NCBI GenBank assembly: GCA_020431405.1
Contig: JAGQIK010000037.1
Location: 1-53,667, forward strand
Direction of reading: 5' to 3'
Length of the DNA stretch: 53,667 nt
Source of the DNA: Myxococcales bacterium
GTDB lineage: Bacteria > Myxococcota_A > Polyangia > GCA-2747355
Both the position numbers and the translations under genes were made by a program. The notes below the pieces were generated by a model that had not been told where the DNA came from, did not search any database, and saw only the letters and a program-made list of their open reading frames with translations. Below, in pieces: positions 12,971 to 24,051 of the stretch (the first letter of the stretch is position 1; every line of letters starts with the position of its first letter).

Positions 12971-12997
12971 CGCCAGCGCGGCTGGTGGCAGCTAGCG
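12963..12997. terminator. Inverted-repeat hairpin between convergent genes
   Basis: The decamer GCAGCTAGCG occurs at 12,963-12,972 and again at 12,988-12,997. Each copy contains a stop codon: TAG of the FHA-GGDEF gene, and TAG of the transglycosylase on the other strand. The two GCTAGC cores are self-complementary, and GCCAGC pairs with GCTGG(T)GGC between them, giving a GC-rich stem without a T-run. A bidirectional terminator role is inferred from position only. Confidence 0.4.
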
Positions 12998-15370
12998 GGC
13001 GCGCGCGGCCGTGCGCCGCCCGCGTTTCTTCTTCGCCCCGAAGGCCCCCATTCGCCCCACGCGCGGCACCTTGAGCGCGAGCCGCGGCAGCTGCGGCCGT
13101 CGGTTATGCAGCACCGCATAAGCGAAGAGGCTCGCCAGAACACGCTTGGTGTAGCGCCGCGTCTGCCGGTAGGGGATGCGCTCGACCAGCTCGTCGAGCG
13201 CGAGACCGCGAAAGCGGCGCAGCCACTTGTTCACCGCCCCGCCGCCGGCGTTGTATCCGGCGATGGCCAGCGGCGAAGTGCGCCCGAAGCGCTTGTATAG
13301 CCAGCCAAGAAAGTACGCGCCGAGCTTGATGTTGGTCGCCGGGTCGTGCAGGGCACGACGATCGACGCGCAGCTTGAAGCGCCGCGCGGCGCGCCGTGCC
13401 GTGGGCAGGATCAGCTGCATCAGCCCCACGGCGTTGGCATACGACTCGACGCTCGGCCGAAAGCCGCTCTCCTCGCGCATGATCGCGCGCACCAGCTCCG
13501 GCGGCAGCCGATTGGCGTTCGCCTCGCGCTCCACGTAGGGGGCGAAGGCGCGCGGGAAGGAGACCTTCCAGCGCCGATAGTTCTCGCCCAGCGGATAGTC
13601 GCGCTGGTAGCGCCGATCGCGGCTGCGCGGCACCTGGTGCGAGCGCGCCCAGTCGCCAGCGCGATCGAAAAGCACGGCGGCGAACCACATGCGCTTGGCC
13701 GACACGCCGCGCGTGCGCAGGCCCGCGCGCGCGAGCTCGCTGGCGGCGATGTTGCCGAAGCCGAGCCGCAGAAGCTCGATTCCGCGCTTGAAGTACGGGC
13801 TCGCGACCAGCTGGCGATCCACCGAGAAGCGCCAGCGGCCAGCCTTGCGCCCCGTCCGCGCCACCAGCTGACGCCACAGCTTGCCGTAGGTGCCGGCATG
13901 GCGCTCGCGCAGCCGGTTGAACGACTGCAGCGCGTAGTAGGACAGCGGGTACTCGCGCGCCGCCTTGGCGTAGAGAGCTCGCGCCTGCTTGCGCTTGCGC
14001 AGCCGATCGAGGATGCGCGCCTTCCAGTAGAGCGCGCGGCCCTCCTCGAAGTAGTAGCGCGGCGGGCCGAGCTTCTGCAGCGTGGTGTCGAGATAGCGCA
14101 GGGCCTCGGCGTAGCGTTTGCCGAGATAGGCTTCGCGCGCTAGCCGCCACAACGCTTCGCGCGCCATATCCCCGCTGGGGTGCTTTTTGGGCAACACGCG
14201 CAGCACCGAGCGGAACAGCGGCAGCTTCTTGGCGTCCTGATAGGCCAGCGCCGCGTAGAGGCGCGCGTCGTCGGCGAAGCTGTGCTTGGGAAACGCCTTC
14301 TCCAGCGCGAGGTACTTCTTCGCCGCCTCGCTGTAGCGTCCCTTCGCCGCGTAGCCGCGCGCCTCCTTGTACAGCGCGCGAACCTGCGTGGCCTGATCCT
14401 TGGCTTTGCGGCACAGCGCCGCCGCGCGCGCGAACAACGGTGCCGCGCGCCAGCGCTTGCGCGCCTTGAAGACGCTGTTGGCGCGCCGGAAGGCCGCGGT
14501 GCAGCGCCGGCGTGCGTCGAGCGTGCGGCTCTGCAGCAGCTTGGCGTACGCGAGCTCGCTGCGGCGATTGCGCATGTTCCAGTAGAGCGCGTGCGCTCGC
14601 AGCCACTGTTCCTTGTCGGTGAGCCGCGCCGCCGCGGCACCGCCCTTGACGCGGCGCGCCAAGAGGCGCAAGCGCTGCTCGGCGCGCGCGGCGAAGCGTG
14701 ACAGCGGCGCACGCACCAGCACGCGCTTGTAGGCCTGCAGCGCGTCCATGCCCTTGGATGGCCCGAGCGCCTCGAAGGCCTCGCCGATGCGGAAGCTCGC
14801 GCGCCCGCGATAGGCGCCGCCTGGCCAGCGCTTGAGATACTCGAGCCACAGCGCCGCGACCTCGCTGTGATGCGACAGCTCGCGCATCGCCTTGGCGCGC
14901 GCCACGATCGCCTGGGCGTGCAGCACCGAGCCATCCGTGATCAGCGCCGCCACGCGGGCCGCGTCGGCGTGCTTGCCCAGCCCGGCTAGCGCACGGGCGC
15001 GATAGAGCCGATGGTAGTCGACCAGCAGCGGGTAGCTCTTCTCGAGGCGGGCGAAGCGCGCCTCGGCGCCAGCGTAGTCCTTCTGGTCGAGCAGCGCCCA
15101 AGCCAGCACGAAGGAGAGCTGGTTGCGGTGCGCGACGCGCCGGCGCCGCAGGTGCTTGCTCAACACCGCCACCACGTCTGCGCTGCGATCGCCGACGAGC
15201 GCGGCCCGCGCCGTGCGCGCCGCCTTGCTGCGCGACAGGTAGCTCGAAAGCGAGCGCACGTCGAATGTGACCTGTGCGCCGCGGCGAGCGCGCGCTACGC
15301 CCTCCCCGCCCGCCACGGCGGCGGCGAGCGGAGCGAACAACAGCAGCGGGGCAAGCGCGAGACGTCTCAC
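12992..15370 (-). CDS. Soluble lytic murein transglycosylase (Slt family) with TPR-like repeats
   Basis: A 792-residue exported protein. A signal peptide (R-R-L-A-L-A-P-L-L-L-F-A-P-L-A-A-A-V-A-G) is followed by about 500 residues of Arg/Ala-rich TPR-like helices (A-L-A-Y-Q-D-A-K, Y-K-E-A-R-G-Y-A-A-K-G-R-Y). The C-terminal SLT domain has I-M-R-E-E-S-G-F with the catalytic Glu, A-N-A-V-G-L-M-Q-L, P-A-T-N-I-K-L-G-A-Y-F-L and A-I-A-G-Y-N-A-G-G-G-A-V. It would cleave peptidoglycan glycan strands. Two GTG codons compete: 15,376 abuts an AAGGT purine run, while 15,370 lies about seven bases from it and is preferred. It follows the pil cluster in the same direction, so a role in opening the wall for the pilus is possible but unproven. 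Confidence 0.9.
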   Translation of the reverse strand: MRRLALAPLLLFAPLAAAVAGGEGVARARRGAQVTFDVRSLSSYLSRSKAARTARAALVGDRSADVVAVLSKHLRRRRVAHRNQLSFVLAWALLDQKDYAGAEARFARLEKSYPLLVDYHRLYRARALAGLGKHADAARVAALITDGSVLHAQAIVARAKAMRELSHHSEVAALWLEYLKRWPGGAYRGRASFRIGEAFEALGPSKGMDALQAYKRVLVRAPLSRFAARAEQRLRLLARRVKGGAAAARLTDKEQWLRAHALYWNMRNRRSELAYAKLLQSRTLDARRRCTAAFRRANSVFKARKRWRAAPLFARAAALCRKAKDQATQVRALYKEARGYAAKGRYSEAAKKYLALEKAFPKHSFADDARLYAALAYQDAKKLPLFRSVLRVLPKKHPSGDMAREALWRLAREAYLGKRYAEALRYLDTTLQKLGPPRYYFEEGRALYWKARILDRLRKRKQARALYAKAAREYPLSYYALQSFNRLRERHAGTYGKLWRQLVARTGRKAGRWRFSVDRQLVASPYFKRGIELLRLGFGNIAASELARAGLRTRGVSAKRMWFAAVLFDRAGDWARSHQVPRSRDRRYQRDYPLGENYRRWKVSFPRAFAPYVEREANANRLPPELVRAIMREESGFRPSVESYANAVGLMQLILPTARRAARRFKLRVDRRALHDPATNIKLGAYFLGWLYKRFGRTSPLAIAGYNAGGGAVNKWLRRFRGLALDELVERIPYRQTRRYTKRVLASLFAYAVLHNRRPQLPRLALKVPRVGRMGAFGAKKKRGRRTAARAR

Positions 15371-15476
15371 GAGCACTACCTTAATACGCGCGCTCGCGGA
15401 GCGTCTGCCTCGGATGTGGGGTCGTATCGGGGAGAGTATCGCGGGAGAGGGGCTTTGCTCGCGCGCGCGGTCCAGG

Positions 15477-15527
15477 AGCGAGTTGCCTAGAGCGAGTTGC
15501 CTAGAGCGAGTTGCCTAGAGCGAGTTG
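15477..15527. repeat. Tandem repeat of a 14-bp unit carrying a stop codon
   Basis: The unit AGCGAGTTGCCTAG occurs three times in a row (15,477-15,490, 15,491-15,504, 15,505-15,518), followed by a nine-base partial copy (15,519-15,527). Read on the minus strand, the last codons of the lipoprotein gene (N-S-L-stop) supply the first unit, so the gene's stop region has been copied downstream. A likely origin is replication slippage. Confidence 0.85.
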
Positions 15528-16282
15528 TCGGTCAGGCAGCGCAGCGAGCCGGAGCCCACGCCGCAGCAGGCGAGCGGCTCGTCCTGCGGCAAGCCGCACG
15601 CATTGGTCGTGTACTTCGGCACGTCGGCCGGATCGACGTTGGCGTCGAGCGGACAGGGCGTGACGTTCTGCACCAGACAGCCATTGCACAGCTCCACCGC
15701 GTAGACGAACTCGGCGCCCTCGATCTCGGAGCTGGTGCCGAGGCGCACGGCGATGGCCTGCACCGTCGCGACGATGATCGGCGAGGCTTGCGCCGGGATC
15801 GTCACGTTCTGCACGAGCGAATCGGGGATGATCTTGACCGCAGTCGCACGCTCGGGCGTGTTCGGCGCCAGCAGCCCCGACGTGGGTACCGAGAAGTTGG
15901 TCACGTTGGCCGGCAGGTTGCCGGTGGCCTCGGCCGGCAGATCGCTGATGTCGAGCTTGACGCGAAACTCGCGCAGCATGAACGAGTTGGTCTCGGGCTG
16001 CGCCGCGTTGGTCGCCTGGCTCGACAAGATCGTCGACCGCACGAGCGGATAGAGCGTGTAGCCACGCCCGAGGCTCACATCGAGCAGACCCGAGGGTCTG
16101 AACAGCGCGTTGGCGCCAGTGCTGACGGTGCACGTGTTGTCCGGCACCTGGTTCTGCACGATGAAGAGCGAGTGGTCGTCGACGCAGCCACTGCTGCTCG
16201 CGACGAGCGCGACCAGGAGCGCCGCCCCAGGAATCAGTCGCCACAACGCCGCGGCGGGACTTGCAGTGCGCCCTCGCGTCAT
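15515..16282 (-). CDS. Cysteine-containing lipoprotein of unknown function, tail of the pil cluster
   Basis: A 255-residue protein with a lipoprotein signal (L-I-P-G-A-A-L-L-V-A-L-V-A, lipobox S-S-S-G-C). An excellent AGGAGG site eight bases upstream fixes the ATG at 16,282. The mature part reads C-V-D-D-H-S-L-F-I-V-Q-N-Q-V-P and contains C-N-G-C, C-P-L and C-C-G-V-G-S-G-S-L-R-C near the C-terminus, consistent with disulfides. I do not recognise a domain. It begins 37 bases after the pilQ stop and probably shares its transcript, so an accessory role at the outer membrane is plausible. A tandem repeat surrounds the stop codon. Confidence 0.82.
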   Translation of the reverse strand: MTRGRTASPAAALWRLIPGAALLVALVASSSGCVDDHSLFIVQNQVPDNTCTVSTGANALFRPSGLLDVSLGRGYTLYPLVRSTILSSQATNAAQPETNSFMLREFRVKLDISDLPAEATGNLPANVTNFSVPTSGLLAPNTPERATAVKIIPDSLVQNVTIPAQASPIIVATVQAIAVRLGTSSEIEGAEFVYAVELCNGCLVQNVTPCPLDANVDPADVPKYTTNACGLPQDEPLACCGVGSGSLRCLTDNSL

Positions 16283-16319
16283 CGCTTCCTCCTGTGTAGT
16301 TCTAGATCGTAGCATAGCG

Positions 16320-19300
16320 TTAGCGCCCGATGCTCTGCGCGCGGTTGATGATGCGCGGCGTGATGAAGACGAGGACTTCTTCGCGGTCGCTGGTGTCGCG
16401 ACGTTTCTTGAACAGCCAGCCGAGGATCGGGATCTCCGCGAACCACGGGACCTTGTTCCAGCTGCGGCCATCGCGTGTCGTATAGATGCCGCCGATCACC
16501 GACGTCTCCCCATCCTTGACCAACATCTCGGTGCGGGCCTCCTTGGTGAGGATCGTGGGGTCGCCGCGAGGACCGGTGTTGACGAAGTCCGGCTCGTTTC
16601 GCGTGACGTTGATCTTCATGATCACGCTGCCATCGGCGGTGACGTGCGGACGGACGGTGAGGTCCAGTCGCGCGTCGCGGAACTGCGTCTGCACGCCGTT
16701 GGCGCTGACCTGCGAGAACGGGATCGTGACGCCCTGAGAGATACGCGCCTGGACGTTGTCGAGGGTCGTGATCTTGGGCGCGGAGACGATGCGGATCGTA
16801 CCGGTGGCCTCTGCCGCGGAGAGCCGCAGGTTGAGGTTGAAGTTGCCCGACAGCGAGCCGAGCGTGAGGCCGAGGGCGGCACCGGAGTTGAGGCCCGTGG
16901 CCGCCGGCATGTTGACGACGAAGTTGGGGTTGGCAGCCGAGCCGAGCAGCAGGCCCGCAGTCGGCGTGTTGCCGTCGGTGGTGCCGCCGCCGATGCCGAT
17001 CTGGTTGGGGAACACCAGGCCGGTAGAGTTGCCGTTGGCCGGCGACGCCGTGAAGGCGGCGCCCCACTGGATGCCGAACTCCTGCGAGAAGTTGCTGCGA
17101 GCCTCGACGATGCGCGCCTCGATCAAGACCTGCGGGGTCTGCGTATCGAGGTTTCGGATCATGCGCTCCATCAGGTTGAGGTTCTGAGCGATGTCGCGCG
17201 CGATGACCATGTTGGTGCGCGCGTCGTAGGTCAGCTTGCCGCGCGGGCTGATCGTGTAGCGCAGCTTGGCCAACACGTCCTGAGCCTGCGCGTAGCTGAG
17301 CGGGATCAAGCGCGTCTCGAGCGGCTGCAGCAACAGCACCTGCTTCTGGCGCGCGAGCTCGGCCTCGCGCTCCTTCTCGAGGTCGGCGCGCGGCGCGACG
17401 CGAAGCAGGTTGCCTTCGCGGACCATGCCCATGCCTTTGGCGCGCAGGATGACGTCGAGCGCCTGGTCCCAGGGCACGTTCTTCATGCGGATCGTCACGC
17501 GGCCCTGCACGGCGTCGCTGGTGACGATGTTGACGTTGCCGACGTCGGAGAGCAGTCGCAGGATGTTGTGGATGTCGGCGTCCTTGAAGTCGAGGTCGAT
17601 GCGGCGACCGCGATAGCGGCGGCGGCGGAAGCGGCGCGCGCGCGTGCGAGCGCCAGCGACCTTGGTGCCGCCGTACTCCACGGTGCGGCTGCGAACATGC
17701 GCCGCGCGCTTGTCCGCCGGCTGCGCGTCGGCGCTGGCGACCTTCTTGGCGAAGCGCCAGATCAACGTGTCGCCCTTGCGGTAGACGCTGTGAGCAGGCG
17801 CGCCGTCGAGCGCCACGCGCACGCGCACCACGCCGTTTTCGTCGGCGGCGTACGAGCTGACGCGCGTGACCGGGCCGTGGAAGGCGCTCGTGTCGAGCGT
17901 GCGTTGCAGGATGCGCGGCAGGCTGGCGCCGCTGAGCAGCAGCTCCGCGCCCTTGCTTCCGCTGAGGATGCGATGCGAGACGGCCCCGTCGAGGCGCACG
18001 ACCACGCGGGCGTCGCGCCGGCCGTCGACGAAGCTGACGTTGCGCACGCGCGCCGTCGCAGCCTTGGCCTCGCGGCGGGCGGGCGGCGTCGCGCTCTGTC
18101 CGGCGGCAAACTTGGCGGTCTGACCGCGGCTGTAGCGCTTGGCCAGACGCGCCAGACGGCGCGCGCGCTGGTCGAGCGCCTCTTTGCGGGCACGCCACGT
18201 CGTCAGCTGCTTGCGCGCGCTGCGCTGGCTGCGACGAAGCGCGTGGCGCGTGCGGTCACGCCGTCGCTTGAGCAGCGCCAGCTTGTGAAGCTCGGCCTTG
18301 CGCGCAGCGCGCGCCGAGGCGAGCGACTTGCGCGTGGCGCGAAGCTCGGCCTGCGCGTGCTCGCGCGCCTTCTCGGCGCGGGCCAGCGCGTCGCGCGTCT
18401 TGGAGAGCTTGGCCCCCGCGCGACGGCGGGCAGCGTCGGCAGCGCGGCGCTTTTTCTCGGCGAGCAGCAGCCCGCGCTCCTCGGCGCGGCGCTTCTTCTC
18501 GGCGACGGCGCGGCGTTGCTCTTCGGCGCGACGGCGGCGCGACGTGCTAGCAAGCGCGCCGCGTGCCGAAGCCAGCTCTCGATGGGTCTTGTCGAGCAGC
18601 GTGCGCGCGGCGAGCTCGGCCGCGCGTGCGCCGGCGAGGCTGCCACGCGTGCGCGAGAGCGCTTGGTCGCTCTGACGCTGCGCCTTCGCCGCGCTGCGCA
18701 GGCGCTTGCCGAGCGCCAGTCGGGCGCTCTCTGCCCGCGCTTGCGCCTGGCGAGCCTCGGCCAGCCGGCGACGCGCGTCAGCGAGCTCGGCCTCGGCGCG
18801 ACGGCGGGCCGTGCCGCGCTTGGCGGCGACCTTCGCGCGCGCGCGTTTGACGGCGACGCGCATGGTGTTGACCGCGAGGCGCGCCTGCGCGGTGATCGTG
18901 CGCTGCTGCTGCAGCTCGTGCTTGACGGTAGCGAGCGCCTGCGTGAGCTGACGCTGCCGCTTGCTGGCCTGTGCCACTTCGGCACGCAGCCGAATGGTCG
19001 TCGCCTTGGCCTGCTGCGCCACACGGCGCTCGCGCTCGACGCGCTCGCGGATGCCGCGCATCTTCTGCGAGAGCGCATGCTCGCGCCGCTTCGAACGGGT
19101 CAGCGCGTTCTGCAGCCGCGCTACGTCCTCGGCCACCGACGCCAGCTTCTGGCGGCGCGAGGCCACCAGCGCCGCAGCGCTCGCCAGCCGGCGCGCCTTG
19201 CGCTGCGCCTCGATCTGCGCCCGCTCGGCCGCCACACGACGCTTTGCCTCTTCGCGCTGACGGCTCAGCGCGCGGCCACGGGCCTTCTCGGCGAGCACAC

Positions 19301-20723
19301 GCTGGTGCTCGGCATGCTTGCGGGCCACCTCGGCTTCGCGCGCCTGCTTCTCGGCGGCCGCGCGGGCACGCACGGCGACGCGACGTGCCTGCTCGGCGCT
19401 GTCGCGCGCCGCTACGGCCTGCGCGCGCGCCTTGACCGCGCGGTCGCGCTCGCTCTTGGCCCGATCACGCTCGGCCTCGGCACGCTTGCGCGCCGCTTCG
19501 GCCGCGCCCAGCCGCGACTGGACGCCGTCGAGGGCCGACGCCGCGCTGCGCTGCGCTCGGGCAGCACGCGCGTGACGCGCACGCGCTTCCACCAGCGCAC
19601 GCGCCAGCTTCTTCAGCCGGCGGCGCGTCGCCTCGTCTACCTTGGGTCGCTTGGCAGCGGCCGCGCGCGCCGCGCGCATCGCCGACTGCATCTTCGCCAG
19701 CTCGACGCTCTGCCGCTGCGCCGCGACACGAGCGTTCTCCAGCCGGCTCTTCATCGTCTGCGCCCGCGCACGCGCCTTGGCTTCGGCGGCGCGCTGATGC
19801 TCGAGCGCCTGCCGCGCCCGCGCCAACGCCTTCGACTGCATCGTCAGCAGCGCGCGCTGCTTTGCGGCCTCGGCCTGGTGCGCTTGCGCCGCGCGCTTGG
19901 CCTGCTCGGCAGCTTTTCGCGCCGCGAACGCAGCCTGGCGCGCCCGCGCCGTCTCGCCGCGCTGCGCCAGCGCCGCCTGCTTCGCCCGCTCGGCCTGCGC
20001 CTTGAGGGCCTCGGCGGCCTTCTTGGCGCGCTCGGCCTCGTCGCGCAGCCGCTTGGCTTCCGTACGCGCCTTCGCCACCTCGTCATGCGCCTTGGCGGCC
20101 GCAGCGAGGGCGCCCTTGGCGGCCTGTCGCTGCGACGCTGCATCCGCGCGAGCGCGCGCCTCGGCAGCCTTCGCGCGAGCCTCGGCCTGCCGCGCCTGCG
20201 ACGCCAGCACGCGCGCCCGCTTGGCCTCCGCGCGCGCCTTGCCCGCGGCCGCCTTGTTCTGGTCCATCGGCCGCGGCTTGTGCGGCGTGACCGTCACCAT
20301 CAGCTTGCTGCCGATGATGCGCGCGTTGTAATGGCATCCACGGCGGAAGTTGATCATCACGCGAGCGATCAGCTTCGAGTTGGTGCGGAACGATGTCGTG
20401 GCGATCTGGCTCACGGCCCACGAGTCGACGTCGCGCAGCTCCGGCACGCCCGAGAATCGCCCGTTGGCGATGTCGAGCGTCAGCCGCGGCGGGCGTTCCA
20501 GCTTGAACACCGAGAACATCGGTCGTGACGAGCCCGTTAGCTCGATGATCGTCTCGTCGCCGCGCTCTTGCACCTTCAGCGTGCTGATGGTGTTGAGCGA
20601 GCGCGCCTGCGCGCTGCTCGCGAGCAGCGCGACCGCTGCGATCATACCGACCCGCGTCAAGCGCTCTCTGCGCTCTCGGCCTCGGCGTCCCTTCGCCACG
20701 CTGGCGAATTGCTCTCGACTCAT
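16320..20723 (-). CDS. pilQ: Type IV pilus secretin PilQ with a giant coiled-coil insertion
   Basis: A 1467-residue protein, far longer than typical PilQ (roughly 700-900). An AAGGAG site eight bases upstream sets the ATG at 20,723. Order: signal peptide (V-G-M-I-A-A-V-A-L-L-A-S-S-A-Q-A); AMIN-like domain (about 38-140); about 715 residues (154-870) of uninterrupted Ala/Arg/Lys/Glu/Gln-rich heptad sequence with almost no Gly, Pro or aromatics; a second AMIN-like domain (about 880-990); a secretin N-domain from D-L-D-F-K-D-A-D-I-H-N-I-L-R-L-L (about 1041); and the secretin beta-barrel with V-L-I-E-A-R-I-V-E, V-T-I-P-F-S-Q-V, V-I-G-G-I-Y-T-T and F-I-T-P-R-I-I. It would form the outer-membrane pilus pore. 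The reading frame is open throughout with no sign of a frameshift. Confidence 0.93.
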   Translation of the reverse strand: MSREQFASVAKGRRGRERRERLTRVGMIAAVALLASSAQARSLNTISTLKVQERGDETIIELTGSSRPMFSVFKLERPPRLTLDIANGRFSGVPELRDVDSWAVSQIATTSFRTNSKLIARVMINFRRGCHYNARIIGSKLMVTVTPHKPRPMDQNKAAAGKARAEAKRARVLASQARQAEARAKAAEARARADAASQRQAAKGALAAAAKAHDEVAKARTEAKRLRDEAERAKKAAEALKAQAERAKQAALAQRGETARARQAAFAARKAAEQAKRAAQAHQAEAAKQRALLTMQSKALARARQALEHQRAAEAKARARAQTMKSRLENARVAAQRQSVELAKMQSAMRAARAAAAKRPKVDEATRRRLKKLARALVEARARHARAARAQRSAASALDGVQSRLGAAEAARKRAEAERDRAKSERDRAVKARAQAVAARDSAEQARRVAVRARAAAEKQAREAEVARKHAEHQRVLAEKARGRALSRQREEAKRRVAAERAQIEAQRKARRLASAAALVASRRQKLASVAEDVARLQNALTRSKRREHALSQKMRGIRERVERERRVAQQAKATTIRLRAEVAQASKRQRQLTQALATVKHELQQQRTITAQARLAVNTMRVAVKRARAKVAAKRGTARRRAEAELADARRRLAEARQAQARAESARLALGKRLRSAAKAQRQSDQALSRTRGSLAGARAAELAARTLLDKTHRELASARGALASTSRRRRAEEQRRAVAEKKRRAEERGLLLAEKKRRAADAARRRAGAKLSKTRDALARAEKAREHAQAELRATRKSLASARAARKAELHKLALLKRRRDRTRHALRRSQRSARKQLTTWRARKEALDQRARRLARLAKRYSRGQTAKFAAGQSATPPARREAKAATARVRNVSFVDGRRDARVVVRLDGAVSHRILSGSKGAELLLSGASLPRILQRTLDTSAFHGPVTRVSSYAADENGVVRVRVALDGAPAHSVYRKGDTLIWRFAKKVASADAQPADKRAAHVRSRTVEYGGTKVAGARTRARRFRRRRYRGRRIDLDFKDADIHNILRLLSDVGNVNIVTSDAVQGRVTIRMKNVPWDQALDVILRAKGMGMVREGNLLRVAPRADLEKEREAELARQKQVLLLQPLETRLIPLSYAQAQDVLAKLRYTISPRGKLTYDARTNMVIARDIAQNLNLMERMIRNLDTQTPQVLIEARIVEARSNFSQEFGIQWGAAFTASPANGNSTGLVFPNQIGIGGGTTDGNTPTAGLLLGSAANPNFVVNMPAATGLNSGAALGLTLGSLSGNFNLNLRLSAAEATGTIRIVSAPKITTLDNVQARISQGVTIPFSQVSANGVQTQFRDARLDLTVRPHVTADGSVIMKINVTRNEPDFVNTGPRGDPTILTKEARTEMLVKDGETSVIGGIYTTRDGRSWNKVPWFAEIPILGWLFKKRRDTSDREEVLVFITPRIINRAQSIGR

Positions 20724-21197: not shown

Positions 21198-21761
21198 CTA
21201 ATTGACGCGCTGCTCGCGGACCGCTTTCGAGTGCAGCTCGATCACGCGGTCTGCCGTACGCTGCGTGTCTTCCGACTGCTCCTGGATCTGCACGACAACC
21301 TTGTCGGGCAGGATCTGTTTGACCCTCGCCGCGTTCTTGCTGATGTAGTCGCCGCGCTTGACCGAGATGCCCAGCCCCTTGGGGTCGCGGAACATCGCGC
21401 GCGCGCGCACCCGTCCCGTGACCACGGCGATGAGGCGCAGCTCGTCGAGGCCGTAGCGCGGCAGCAGGATCTTGCGCTGCAGCCGCACCGTGCGGCGGAT
21501 CGGGTTGGCGAACTCGCCGAGGTACGAACGGAACGGATCGCGGTTGGTCTGGATCGATTCGGCGAAGTCCTCGTCGCCCAGCGTCGACTTGCGGCGCTTC
21601 ACGCGCCCTGGCGCTTGCGGCGGTCTACGCGGCGGAGGACGCTTGGCGCCGGGCTTGCGCGGCGCCGCCTTGCCGAAGGGGCTGCTCTTCTTGTCGTCAC
21701 AGCCCTGCACACCAAGCAGCAGCAGGGCCGCCACGCCGAGCACCATCCTCGTAGTCTTCAT
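21198..21761 (-). CDS. pilP: Type IV pilus assembly lipoprotein PilP
   Basis: A 187-residue lipoprotein (M-V-L-G-V-A-A-L-L-L-L-G-V-Q-G-C). A Pro/Arg-rich linker follows, then a C-terminal beta-domain with N-R-D-P-F-R-S-Y-L, Y-G-L-D-E-L-R-L-I-A-V-V and V-K-R-G-D-Y-I-S-K-N-A-A-R-V, typical of PilP. It links the PilM/N/O inner-membrane complex to PilQ in the periplasm. A GGAG site seven bases upstream supports the ATG at 21,761 over a GTG at 21,776 that would overlap pilO. Confidence 0.93.
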   Translation of the reverse strand: MKTTRMVLGVAALLLLGVQGCDDKKSSPFGKAAPRKPGAKRPPPRRPPQAPGRVKRRKSTLGDEDFAESIQTNRDPFRSYLGEFANPIRRTVRLQRKILLPRYGLDELRLIAVVTGRVRARAMFRDPKGLGISVKRGDYISKNAARVKQILPDKVVVQIQEQSEDTQRTADRVIELHSKAVREQRVN

Positions 21762-21772
21762 CGCGTGGCTCC

Positions 21773-22360
21773 TCACACCGGTCGCTTTCCGACGAAGCGG
21801 AAGGTGCTGATCACGAACTGCGCCCGCAGCACGACACCTTGCTCGGTCTGCGCTGGTGACGTCAGGAGCAGGTCCTCGATCTTGACGATGCGTTTGAGGT
21901 CCTTCTCCATGTAGTAGAAGAATTTAGAGAGCTGGTGGAAGCTGCCGGTGATCGTCATTCGCACTGGGATCTGCGCGTAGAACGACTGCCTCACCTCGGG
22001 CCGCTGATCGTAGGTCAGGATGTTGACGCCCGCGGCGGCTGCCTGCGCGTGGATCGACTGCAGGAACGTCGAGATGTTGGCGTCGTCGGGCAGGACCTTG
22101 AGCAGCTCTTTTTGCTCGTCCAGCAGCTTGTTCACTTCTGCACGGAACGCGCGGTATCTCTGTTTTCTGTCGAGATACTTGGTCTTCTCTGCTTCGAGCT
22201 GCTTCACGCGTGTCGACAGTGATTTCGCCTTGTCCGCGAGATCCGAGTAGAACACGAAGTAAAAGACTGCGCCAATAAACGCGCTGATAGCGAGCAAGGC
22301 GATGACCTTGACCCGCGTAGGCGTCCTGACGAATCTTTCCATCACATCGGAGAGCGCCAT
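21773..22360 (-). CDS. pilO: Type IV pilus inner-membrane protein PilO
   Basis: A 195-residue protein with one membrane segment (V-I-A-L-L-A-I-S-A-F-I-G-A-V-F-Y-F-V-F-Y, about 19-38). A coiled coil (about 40-90) and a ferredoxin-like periplasmic domain (L-P-D-D-A-N-I-S-T-F-L, G-S-F-H-Q-L-S-K-F-F-Y) follow. It pairs with PilN in the alignment complex. A GAGGAG site lies seven bases before the ATG. The gene sits between pilN (12-base gap) and pilP. Confidence 0.94.
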   Translation of the reverse strand: MALSDVMERFVRTPTRVKVIALLAISAFIGAVFYFVFYSDLADKAKSLSTRVKQLEAEKTKYLDRKQRYRAFRAEVNKLLDEQKELLKVLPDDANISTFLQSIHAQAAAAGVNILTYDQRPEVRQSFYAQIPVRMTITGSFHQLSKFFYYMEKDLKRIVKIEDLLLTSPAQTEQGVVLRAQFVISTFRFVGKRPV

Positions 22361-22372
22361 CGCTTATCTCCT

Positions 22373-23008
22373 CTAGTACTTGACCGTCGCGGTCATCGAG
22401 AAGCGCACGACCTTGAGGCCGAGCCTTCCATCGACTACCTGGTCGTTGCGCTTGAGCTGGACGTTGTCGAAGTACTTCGAGATGTTGAGCCGCTTGTGGA
22501 ACTCGGCGATGTCGTCGTAGTCCTTGGCCTTGCCGATGATCTCGAGTGAGCGCCGGCGCTCGTTGAACTGCTCGATCCACAGTCGGCGCGGGTTCCAGTT
22601 GCGGTTGATCCGCGAGCTCGGGTTGCGCCGCACCTTCTCGTCGTAGGCCTTCTGGTCGTAGGTCGGCCGGCCGTTGGCGCTCAGGATCGAGCTCATCTCG
22701 CGCATCAACCACACCGGGCCGGTGCGCGCCGAATTGAGCTGGTTGATGATGTTGCGCTGGGCGATCAGCCGCTGGCGCTGCGCCTGCAGCCGGTCATAGT
22801 CGCCCACTTCCTTCTTCAGCGCGTCGATCTCGGTGGTCAGGCCGGCGACGATGCGGTTCTTCTCGGCGACCTCGTCGGACGCCATGTTGTAGAGGAAGAA
22901 CATCGCCACGATCTCGACAGCGAACAGCAGCACGAACAGCAGCAGCTGCCGCTGGCCCATCTGGACCTTCTTGACCTGACGAACCGGCAGTAGGTTGATC
23001 CGGATCAT
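22373..23008 (-). CDS. pilN: Type IV pilus inner-membrane protein PilN
   Basis: A 211-residue protein with the conserved N-terminal tail M-I-R-I-N-L-L-P-V-R that docks into PilM. One membrane segment follows (L-L-L-F-V-L-L-F-A-V-E-I-V-A-M-F-F-L-Y), then a coiled coil and a periplasmic domain ending F-S-M-T-A-T-V-K-Y. The ATG overlaps the pilM stop (ATGA) and has a GGGAG site upstream. Confidence 0.94.
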   Translation of the reverse strand: MIRINLLPVRQVKKVQMGQRQLLLFVLLFAVEIVAMFFLYNMASDEVAEKNRIVAGLTTEIDALKKEVGDYDRLQAQRQRLIAQRNIINQLNSARTGPVWLMREMSSILSANGRPTYDQKAYDEKVRRNPSSRINRNWNPRRLWIEQFNERRRSLEIIGKAKDYDDIAEFHKRLNISKYFDNVQLKRNDQVVDGRLGLKVVRFSMTATVKY

Positions 23009-24051
23009 AGGCTGTCTCCCTCCGCGCGAAGGGCCAGGCCCATGGCGACGGCCGCCATCGGCGCTTGTGCTCGCACGTAGTCCATGTCGAACGTCTCCTC
23101 GTCGACGGCGACGCCGCGGAACGGGTCGAGCATCTCGACGGGGATGCGCGCCCGGTCTTCGATCGCCTTCTTCAGCGCGGGGACGCGCGCGGAGCCGCCG
23201 CTGAGGTAGATGCGGTCGATCTGCCCATCCGCCGTGGTGGCGAGGAAGAAGTCAAACGAGCGCTGGAACTCGCCGGCCATCACCTCGGCCTGCTGCGTGA
23301 GGATGTCGTCGACCTCGCGCGGGATGACCTCGTCGCCGGCGGTGCCGCCGCACTTGTAGGCCTCCGCCTCCTCGTAGCCGACGTTGAGCTGCTTCTGGAT
23401 CTCTTCGGTGAAGGTGTTGCCGCCGATGGTCACATCGCGCGTGAACATGCTCTGGCCGTTCTGCGTGATGTTGAGCGTGCTGATCGACGCGCCGACGTTG
23501 AGCAGCGCCACCGTCTCGGGCGGCGTGCCGTAGTTGACCTCGAAGCAGTTCTGCAGCGTGAAGGCCGCCACATCGACGCAGACCGGATTGAGCGACGCCT
23601 CGCGCGCCGTATCGGCGTAGTCGGCGACGACTTCCTTCTTGGCAGCGACGAGCAGCACCTCCATCTGGTTGGCGCCCATCTGCTGCCCCAGCACCTGATG
23701 GTCGACCTCGACGTCGTCCTTGGCGAAGGGGATGTGGTGCTCGGCCTCCCAGTGGATCTGCTCTTCGAGCTCGTCGGCCGTCATCACCGGGACGCTGATC
23801 TTCTTGATGATCACCGAGTGACCGGCGATGGCCAGCGCCACGTCCTTGTGGCGGATGCGCAGCTGCCCGAACAGCGACCGCGTGGCGTCGGCGATGGCCG
23901 TCGCGTTCATCACCGAGCCGTCGACGATGCTCTGCGTCGGGACGGGCTCGATCCCGAAGTTGACCAGTTGCACGCCACGCTTGGTCTGCTTGACCTGCAC
24001 GACCTTGATGGCGCTGCTGCCAATGTCGAGACCGATACAGTTCTTCGCCAT
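23005..24051 (-). CDS. pilM: Type IV pilus actin-like ATPase PilM
   Basis: A 348-residue cytoplasmic FtsA/actin-fold protein. It has I-G-L-D-I-G-S-S-A-I-K-V-V (phosphate 1), E-E-Q-I-H-W-E-A-E-H-H-I-P-F, A-L-L-N-V-G-A-S-I-S-T-L-N-I (phosphate 2 region) and I-Y-L-S-G-G-S-A-R-V-P-A-L (adenosine motif). It binds the PilN N-terminus to form the cytoplasmic ring. A GGAGG site precedes the ATG. It is the first gene of the pilMNOP run; an upstream gap of about 200 bases separates it from the HTH gene. Confidence 0.95.
   Translation of the reverse strand: MAKNCIGLDIGSSAIKVVQVKQTKRGVQLVNFGIEPVPTQSIVDGSVMNATAIADATRSLFGQLRIRHKDVALAIAGHSVIIKKISVPVMTADELEEQIHWEAEHHIPFAKDDVEVDHQVLGQQMGANQMEVLLVAAKKEVVADYADTAREASLNPVCVDVAAFTLQNCFEVNYGTPPETVALLNVGASISTLNITQNGQSMFTRDVTIGGNTFTEEIQKQLNVGYEEAEAYKCGGTAGDEVIPREVDDILTQQAEVMAGEFQRSFDFFLATTADGQIDRIYLSGGSARVPALKKAIEDRARIPVEMLDPFRGVAVDEETFDMDYVRAQAPMAAVAMGLALRAEGDSL

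Follow-up and report, generated by a model that had tools for sequence, protein, structure and literature searches.

How the pilus machine stays in the envelope while it is pulling is a recurring question, and it is raised here by a pilQ gene whose product carries a very long segment between two AMIN domains. The gene lies in a 53,667-nucleotide stretch of DNA (the window), which is one contig (C68) of the 11.2-Mb draft genome, in 733 contigs, of a Myxococcales bacterium whose relatives among named records belong to Myxococcota. The gene is read as a single uninterrupted frame of 1,467 residues, and its product matches the curated NCBIfam PilQ model TIGR02515 with 432 bits against a cut-off of 284, so that the PilQ secretin of the earlier note is correct in both coordinates and frame (Table 1). 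Pfam gives two AMIN domains, N0/STN, Secretin_N and Secretin, and the domain order is signal peptide, AMIN1, coil, AMIN2, N0, N1 and secretin; by the curated model as well as by the domain order, the protein is a PilQ type IV pilus secretin. Moreover, pilQ is the final gene of a normal pilMNOPQ operon on the minus strand, and pilM to pilP adjoin pilQ in the relatives too. The signal-peptide-like N-terminal segment would place the coil in the periplasm.

Table 1 Features of the pilQ locus and of the secretin-free paralogs (numbers alone are window positions; those after an L number are positions in another locus)
Feature	Location	Strand	Evidence
pilQ, 1,467-aa type IV pilus secretin	16320..20723	-	ORF and TIGR02515
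Signal-peptide-like N-terminus (Sec-type), residues 1-41	20601..20723	-	sequence by eye
AMIN domain 1, residues 44-146	20286..20594	-	profile E 6e-42; Pfam AMIN at 20379-20576
Heptad coiled-coil segment, residues 150-868	18120..20276	-	composition, periodicity, shuffles
Four predicted long helices	18240..20246	-	AlphaFold model
AMIN domain 2, residues 892-985	17769..18050	-	Pfam and profile
N0 domain, residues 1044-1109	17397..17594	-	PF21305
N1 / Secretin_N domain, residues 1137-1198	17130..17315	-	PF03958
Secretin pore domain, residues 1303-1459	16347..16817	-	PF00263 E 2e-45
pilP	21198..21776	-	PF04351
pilO	21773..22360	-	PF04350
pilN	22373..23008	-	PF05137
pilM	23005..24051	-	PF11104
Paralog start at contig edge (own genome, contig C272)	L061 3-1229	-	
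Secretin-free paralog	L180 5468-9025	+	
Secretin-free paralog	L181 5168-8944	-	

Several other frames lie around or across pilQ. A gene for a lytic transglycosylase with TPRs (12992-15376, minus strand) is located just downstream, and in genomes G003 and G002 a lytic transglycosylase gene is also near pilQ, in the opposite orientation. Directly 3' of pilQ there is a lipoprotein-like gene with no Pfam match (at about 15515-16310, minus strand). Antisense to almost all of pilQ runs an open frame of 1,472 aa (16110-20528, plus strand), which probably arises as a shadow ORF of the GC-rich gene that it opposes.

The segment between the AMIN domains is a genuine heptad coiled coil. It consists of 28.7% Ala, 20.0% Arg, 7.9% Lys, 7.9% Leu, 7.8% Glu and 7.4% Gln, the periodicity of its hydrophobic residues is 3.5 (z 6.5 versus shuffles), and their autocorrelation peaks at 7, 14, 21 and 28. 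Codon-position shuffles predict 92 prolines and 78 glycines, while three and 15 are observed, respectively, and numbers so far below expectation exclude chance. Low complexity driven by GC, which is 76% in this coil, was also considered; it is ruled out by the same shuffles and by the presence of coils in genes of 26–41% GC. Thus, composition, periodicity and the profile-located AMIN domains agree with the Ala/Arg/Lys/Glu/Gln heptads that the earlier note had seen, and the structure prediction that it proposed as a check returns long helices. Its description of the coil as continuous is not fully accurate: the heptad phase shifts several times and AlphaFold predicts four helices (residues 160–357, 364–474, 490–634 and 638–828, i.e. 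198, 111, 145 and 191 residues). The model, which was obtained from 14 divergent aligned sequences and has a pTM of 0.34, shows a pLDDT of mostly 75–91 in the second helix pair. Model residues 471–722 (511–762 of the protein) align with a fragment of an Smc coiled coil (251 residues, 2.1 Å), which weakly supports a hairpin in the second half of the coil. In addition, modelled AMIN1 matches the AMIN domain of AmiC (Z 14.3) and modelled AMIN2 matches the B2 domain of Neisseria PilQ (Z 13.3), and a PDB sequence search with the coil gave no match at E 1e-5.

To see how the segment is distributed, PilQ proteins were taken from genomes of the same class and from others in the phylum together with 80 named contigs, and AMIN1 and AMIN2 were located in them by profiles. 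Long PilQ frames occur in most class-mates and elsewhere in the phylum; since stop-to-stop frames include some upstream sequence, linker lengths and not frame lengths are to be compared. Among the PilQs measured, 48 distinct proteins have the layout AMIN-coil-AMIN-N0-N1-secretin, and AMIN domains flank the coil in 48 of 48, the coil region itself having been located by means of them. The coils have 238 to 2,031 residues (median 684), their proline content is low in all 48 (median 0.65%), and the heptad period peaks at 3.44–3.62 in 45. GC content is 26–75% in the coil-bearing genes checked, and the net charge of the coil in the relatives varies from −40 to +183. Coils of 1,330–2,031 residues are carried by L142–L148 (genomes G301, G262, G421, G245, G304, G374 and G266), and all five measured members of one clade keep coils of 1,478–2,031 residues. 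Even the longest PilQ, that of G301 with a stop-to-stop frame of 2,830 aa, has kept AMIN, N0, N1 and secretin. The layout, its conservation and the rapid change in coil length are therefore established along with the coiled coil. To our knowledge, these coils would rank among the longest periplasmic coiled coils, and a literature search for a PilQ coiled coil found no relevant report. Fifteen other PilQs have a long linker at the coil position that lacks heptads; 13 of these linkers, from Geobacteraceae, Myxococcus-type and other lineages, contain 4–14% proline, and the other two (G006 and L065) are Ala-rich with 2.0–3.6% proline. Related PilQs of the same class, which presumably work, have linkers of only 16–50 residues.

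In a tree of 124 secretin domains, for which support is SH-aLRT only and the root was not inferred, the Myxococcota rows group into a single clade (support 99), and an 80-row clade within it (support 93) contains nearly all coil bearers; the coil-bearing pair L138 and L101 lies outside the latter. The insert, whose possible restriction to a lineage the earlier note had brought up, is thus indeed lineage-specific. Short PilQs are found in nested groups, namely the Polyangiales-type (18), G024/G016/G032, L084/G342 and G283, and the presence and absence of the coil takes a minimum of six changes on the tree. In the simplest reading of this pattern, the coil was probably ancestral to the large clade of Polyangia plus Bradymonadia-type bacteria, with several later losses. 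A split of the coil into a separate gene beside a normal-length pilQ, which the earlier note had considered as well, was not detected at 17 of the 19 short-PilQ loci, and each of the other two has an ORF with a helix-like run of 80–94 residues. The dN/dS values are 0.28–0.79 for the coil, 0.11–0.38 for AMIN1 and 0.09–0.27 from AMIN2 to the end, with some pairs saturated; the coil drifts faster than the flanking domains, yet it is under purifying selection. Its sequence, charge and length change fast while heptads and helicity are kept, and in-frame internal repeats are present in the coils of G304 (206 residues), G262 (199), G374 (94), G266 (25) and G027 (21/42). Two record titles disagree with the sequences they carry: the pilQ of L138 has a GC content of 30%, although the record is titled Anaeromyxobacter dehalogenans, a species of high GC, and the title is probably wrong, and L105, titled Oligoflexales, has a PilQ inside the Myxococcota clade and is probably a mislabelled bin.

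PilQ of Myxococcus xanthus (three AMIN domains) and of Pseudomonas aeruginosa (two) share AMIN, N0/N1, secretin and the pilMNOPQ operon with the window protein, but their AMIN linkers are flexible and without a long coiled coil; the Myxococcus-named relative L100 has a proline-rich stretch of 174 residues instead. AMIN domains target PilQ to the wall at the septum and the pole (PMC10653833, PMC5285504). Those of M. xanthus are required for polar recruitment (PMC10653833), and in P. aeruginosa they bind peptidoglycan and PilQ depends on them for its polar localisation; the authors propose anchoring by AMIN against twitching forces (PMC5285504). Neisseria PilQ, too, is unusual at the position of the window coil, where small basic repeats between the B1 and B2 beta domains form a basic segment of low complexity that affects pilus formation (PMC3441751). 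These repeats are short and do not form a heptad coil of hundreds of residues, and their place suggests that the linker is one spot where PilQ varies. A comparable plan is known from SlpA/OmpM/Omp-alpha of deep-branching bacteria, in which a wall-binding domain is joined to an outer-membrane barrel by a coiled-coil stalk of 28–45 nm (PMC9388160). Coil-bearing PilQ likewise consists of a predicted wall-binding domain, a coiled coil and an outer-membrane part; however, SlpA/OmpM have SLH and a porin-like trimer, whereas Pfam gives AMIN and Secretin for the window protein and no SLH domain or porin-like trimeric barrel. It would thus work like such a connector without being a member, by analogy and not by homology.

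A rod between two wall-binding AMIN domains would most simply be an anchor arm. We assume, with a probability of about 0.5 for the reading as a whole, that the window protein is a working PilQ whose inter-AMIN linker has expanded to a long coiled coil, and that this coil may serve as a peptidoglycan-anchoring arm spreading the pulling load in the way of the SlpA/OmpM connectors. AMIN2, N0, N1 and secretin would build the usual ring and dock to PilP, while in each subunit the coil would form an arm that holds AMIN1 away from the ring. The pilus base could then grip the wall at numerous sites around the pore, and the arms would direct the machine to suitable wall and distribute the load of retracting pili. 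As a straight rod of 0.15 nm per residue, the coil would be about 107 nm long here and 35–302 nm over 238–2,031 residues; at about 107 nm, or about 300 nm in the longest relatives, an extended arm exceeds the usual periplasm and has to run parallel to the wall or be folded up as hairpins. For coil-bearing PilQ, wall binding by the AMIN domains (after P. aeruginosa, PMC5285504), the geometry of the arm and its spreading of load are all inferred. The very long periplasmic coil with AMIN domains at both ends in the earlier note is upheld, being intact and widespread, and the peptidoglycan contact that it suggested would hold by analogy with P. aeruginosa. The persistence of heptads, proline avoidance and purifying selection despite sequence drift counts for an anchor arm, as does the lack of a significant correlation between coil length and the lengths of PilN, PilO and PilP (Spearman 0.01, 0.22 and −0.09, all p > 0.12). 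The same lack of correlation speaks against a membrane-spacing role, and a part that varies from 238 to 2,031 residues cannot fix a distance, so that the bridging of membranes or setting of gate spacing in the earlier note is not upheld. That a basic coil might generally serve as a strip for binding wall or DNA was also rejected; net charge is not conserved, and thus the coil itself is probably not the wall-binding surface. The short-linker PilQs of the same class count against the anchor arm, and the fold-back of at least the second half in the AlphaFold model would make the arm shorter. A wider picture is rather doubtful, in which a branch-wide crown of wall-gripping arms of up to about 300 nm holds the pilus base over a large polar area, with an AMIN-coil-beta-domain paralog as a separate wall staple. 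Since the PilQ coils of the phylum grade naturally from next to none up to 2,000 residues, anchoring becomes testable.

Smc arms are antiparallel coiled coils, and the resemblance of residues ~511–762 to one, together with the four modelled helices, could instead indicate a compact collar, in which antiparallel hairpins of 20–30 nm, a size that would fit the periplasm, pack round the periplasmic vestibule of the secretin and stiffen the ring without any long reach. AlphaFold is prone to folding back single long coils, however, and the model comes from few and divergent sequences and has a low pTM; moreover, coils of 1,300–2,031 residues would require many hairpins, and no loop position common to the families was found. 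We thus consider the collar unlikely. Somewhat less probable still is a loose spacer, i.e. a linker that tolerates repeat expansion and keeps only its helicity, against proteolysis or clashes, while its length has no specific function. The rapid change in length and sequence, the in-frame repeats of 21–25, 94 and about 200 residues in several lineages, the dN/dS of up to 0.79 and the repeated loss of the coil are all in its favour, but the heptad period in 45 of 48 and the low proline in 48 of 48 hold across 26–75% GC, and the clade in which five of five members keep 1,478–2,031 residues would bear a high cost for something useless.

Coiled coils readily pair, and arms of adjacent secretins might therefore pair and cluster the pilus machines at the pole, with the secretin-free AMIN-coil paralog of the same genome as a possible cross-linker; arms within one ring are closer to each other than to those of another ring, and we regard such pairing as improbable. 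That two genes were fused by a frameshift or a chimera, in assembly or translation, is hardly conceivable. The assembly is a draft of 733 contigs, as most of the compared genomes are drafts, and nothing else was found in favour of an artefact. The absence of a frameshift stated in the earlier note is confirmed by the one open frame and by the recurrence of the layout across dozens of independent genomes, one of which, G247, is a single contig (5,045,683 bp), and the C-terminal half of PilQ lacks a separate signal peptide. Comparison thus refutes the artefact, and the anchor arm is retained as the preferred reading.

A secretin-free paralog is present in three genomes of the same order as the window genome. 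The complete proteins, in G001 and G003 (stop-to-stop frames of 1,259 and 1,186 aa), begin with a signal peptide and an AMIN domain, followed by a long Arg/Ala coil and, at the C-terminus, a beta-rich domain; the gene in L181 adjoins genes for a diguanylate cyclase and a glycosyltransferase. The beta-rich domain may represent a degenerate AMIN (hhalign probability 25%, AlphaFold pLDDT 61), and there is no AMIN among the Foldseek matches listed. The existence of the paralog suggests that a wall-binding rod can stand alone, which supports a use of its own. The window genome also encodes, on contig C364 (L060 2913-3446, plus strand), a stand-alone 177-aa protein, of which no close counterpart was seen among 18 relatives. 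It has a signal peptide and PilQ-like N0 and N1 domains without a secretin domain, and its N0/N1 part is 44% identical to that of the window PilQ.
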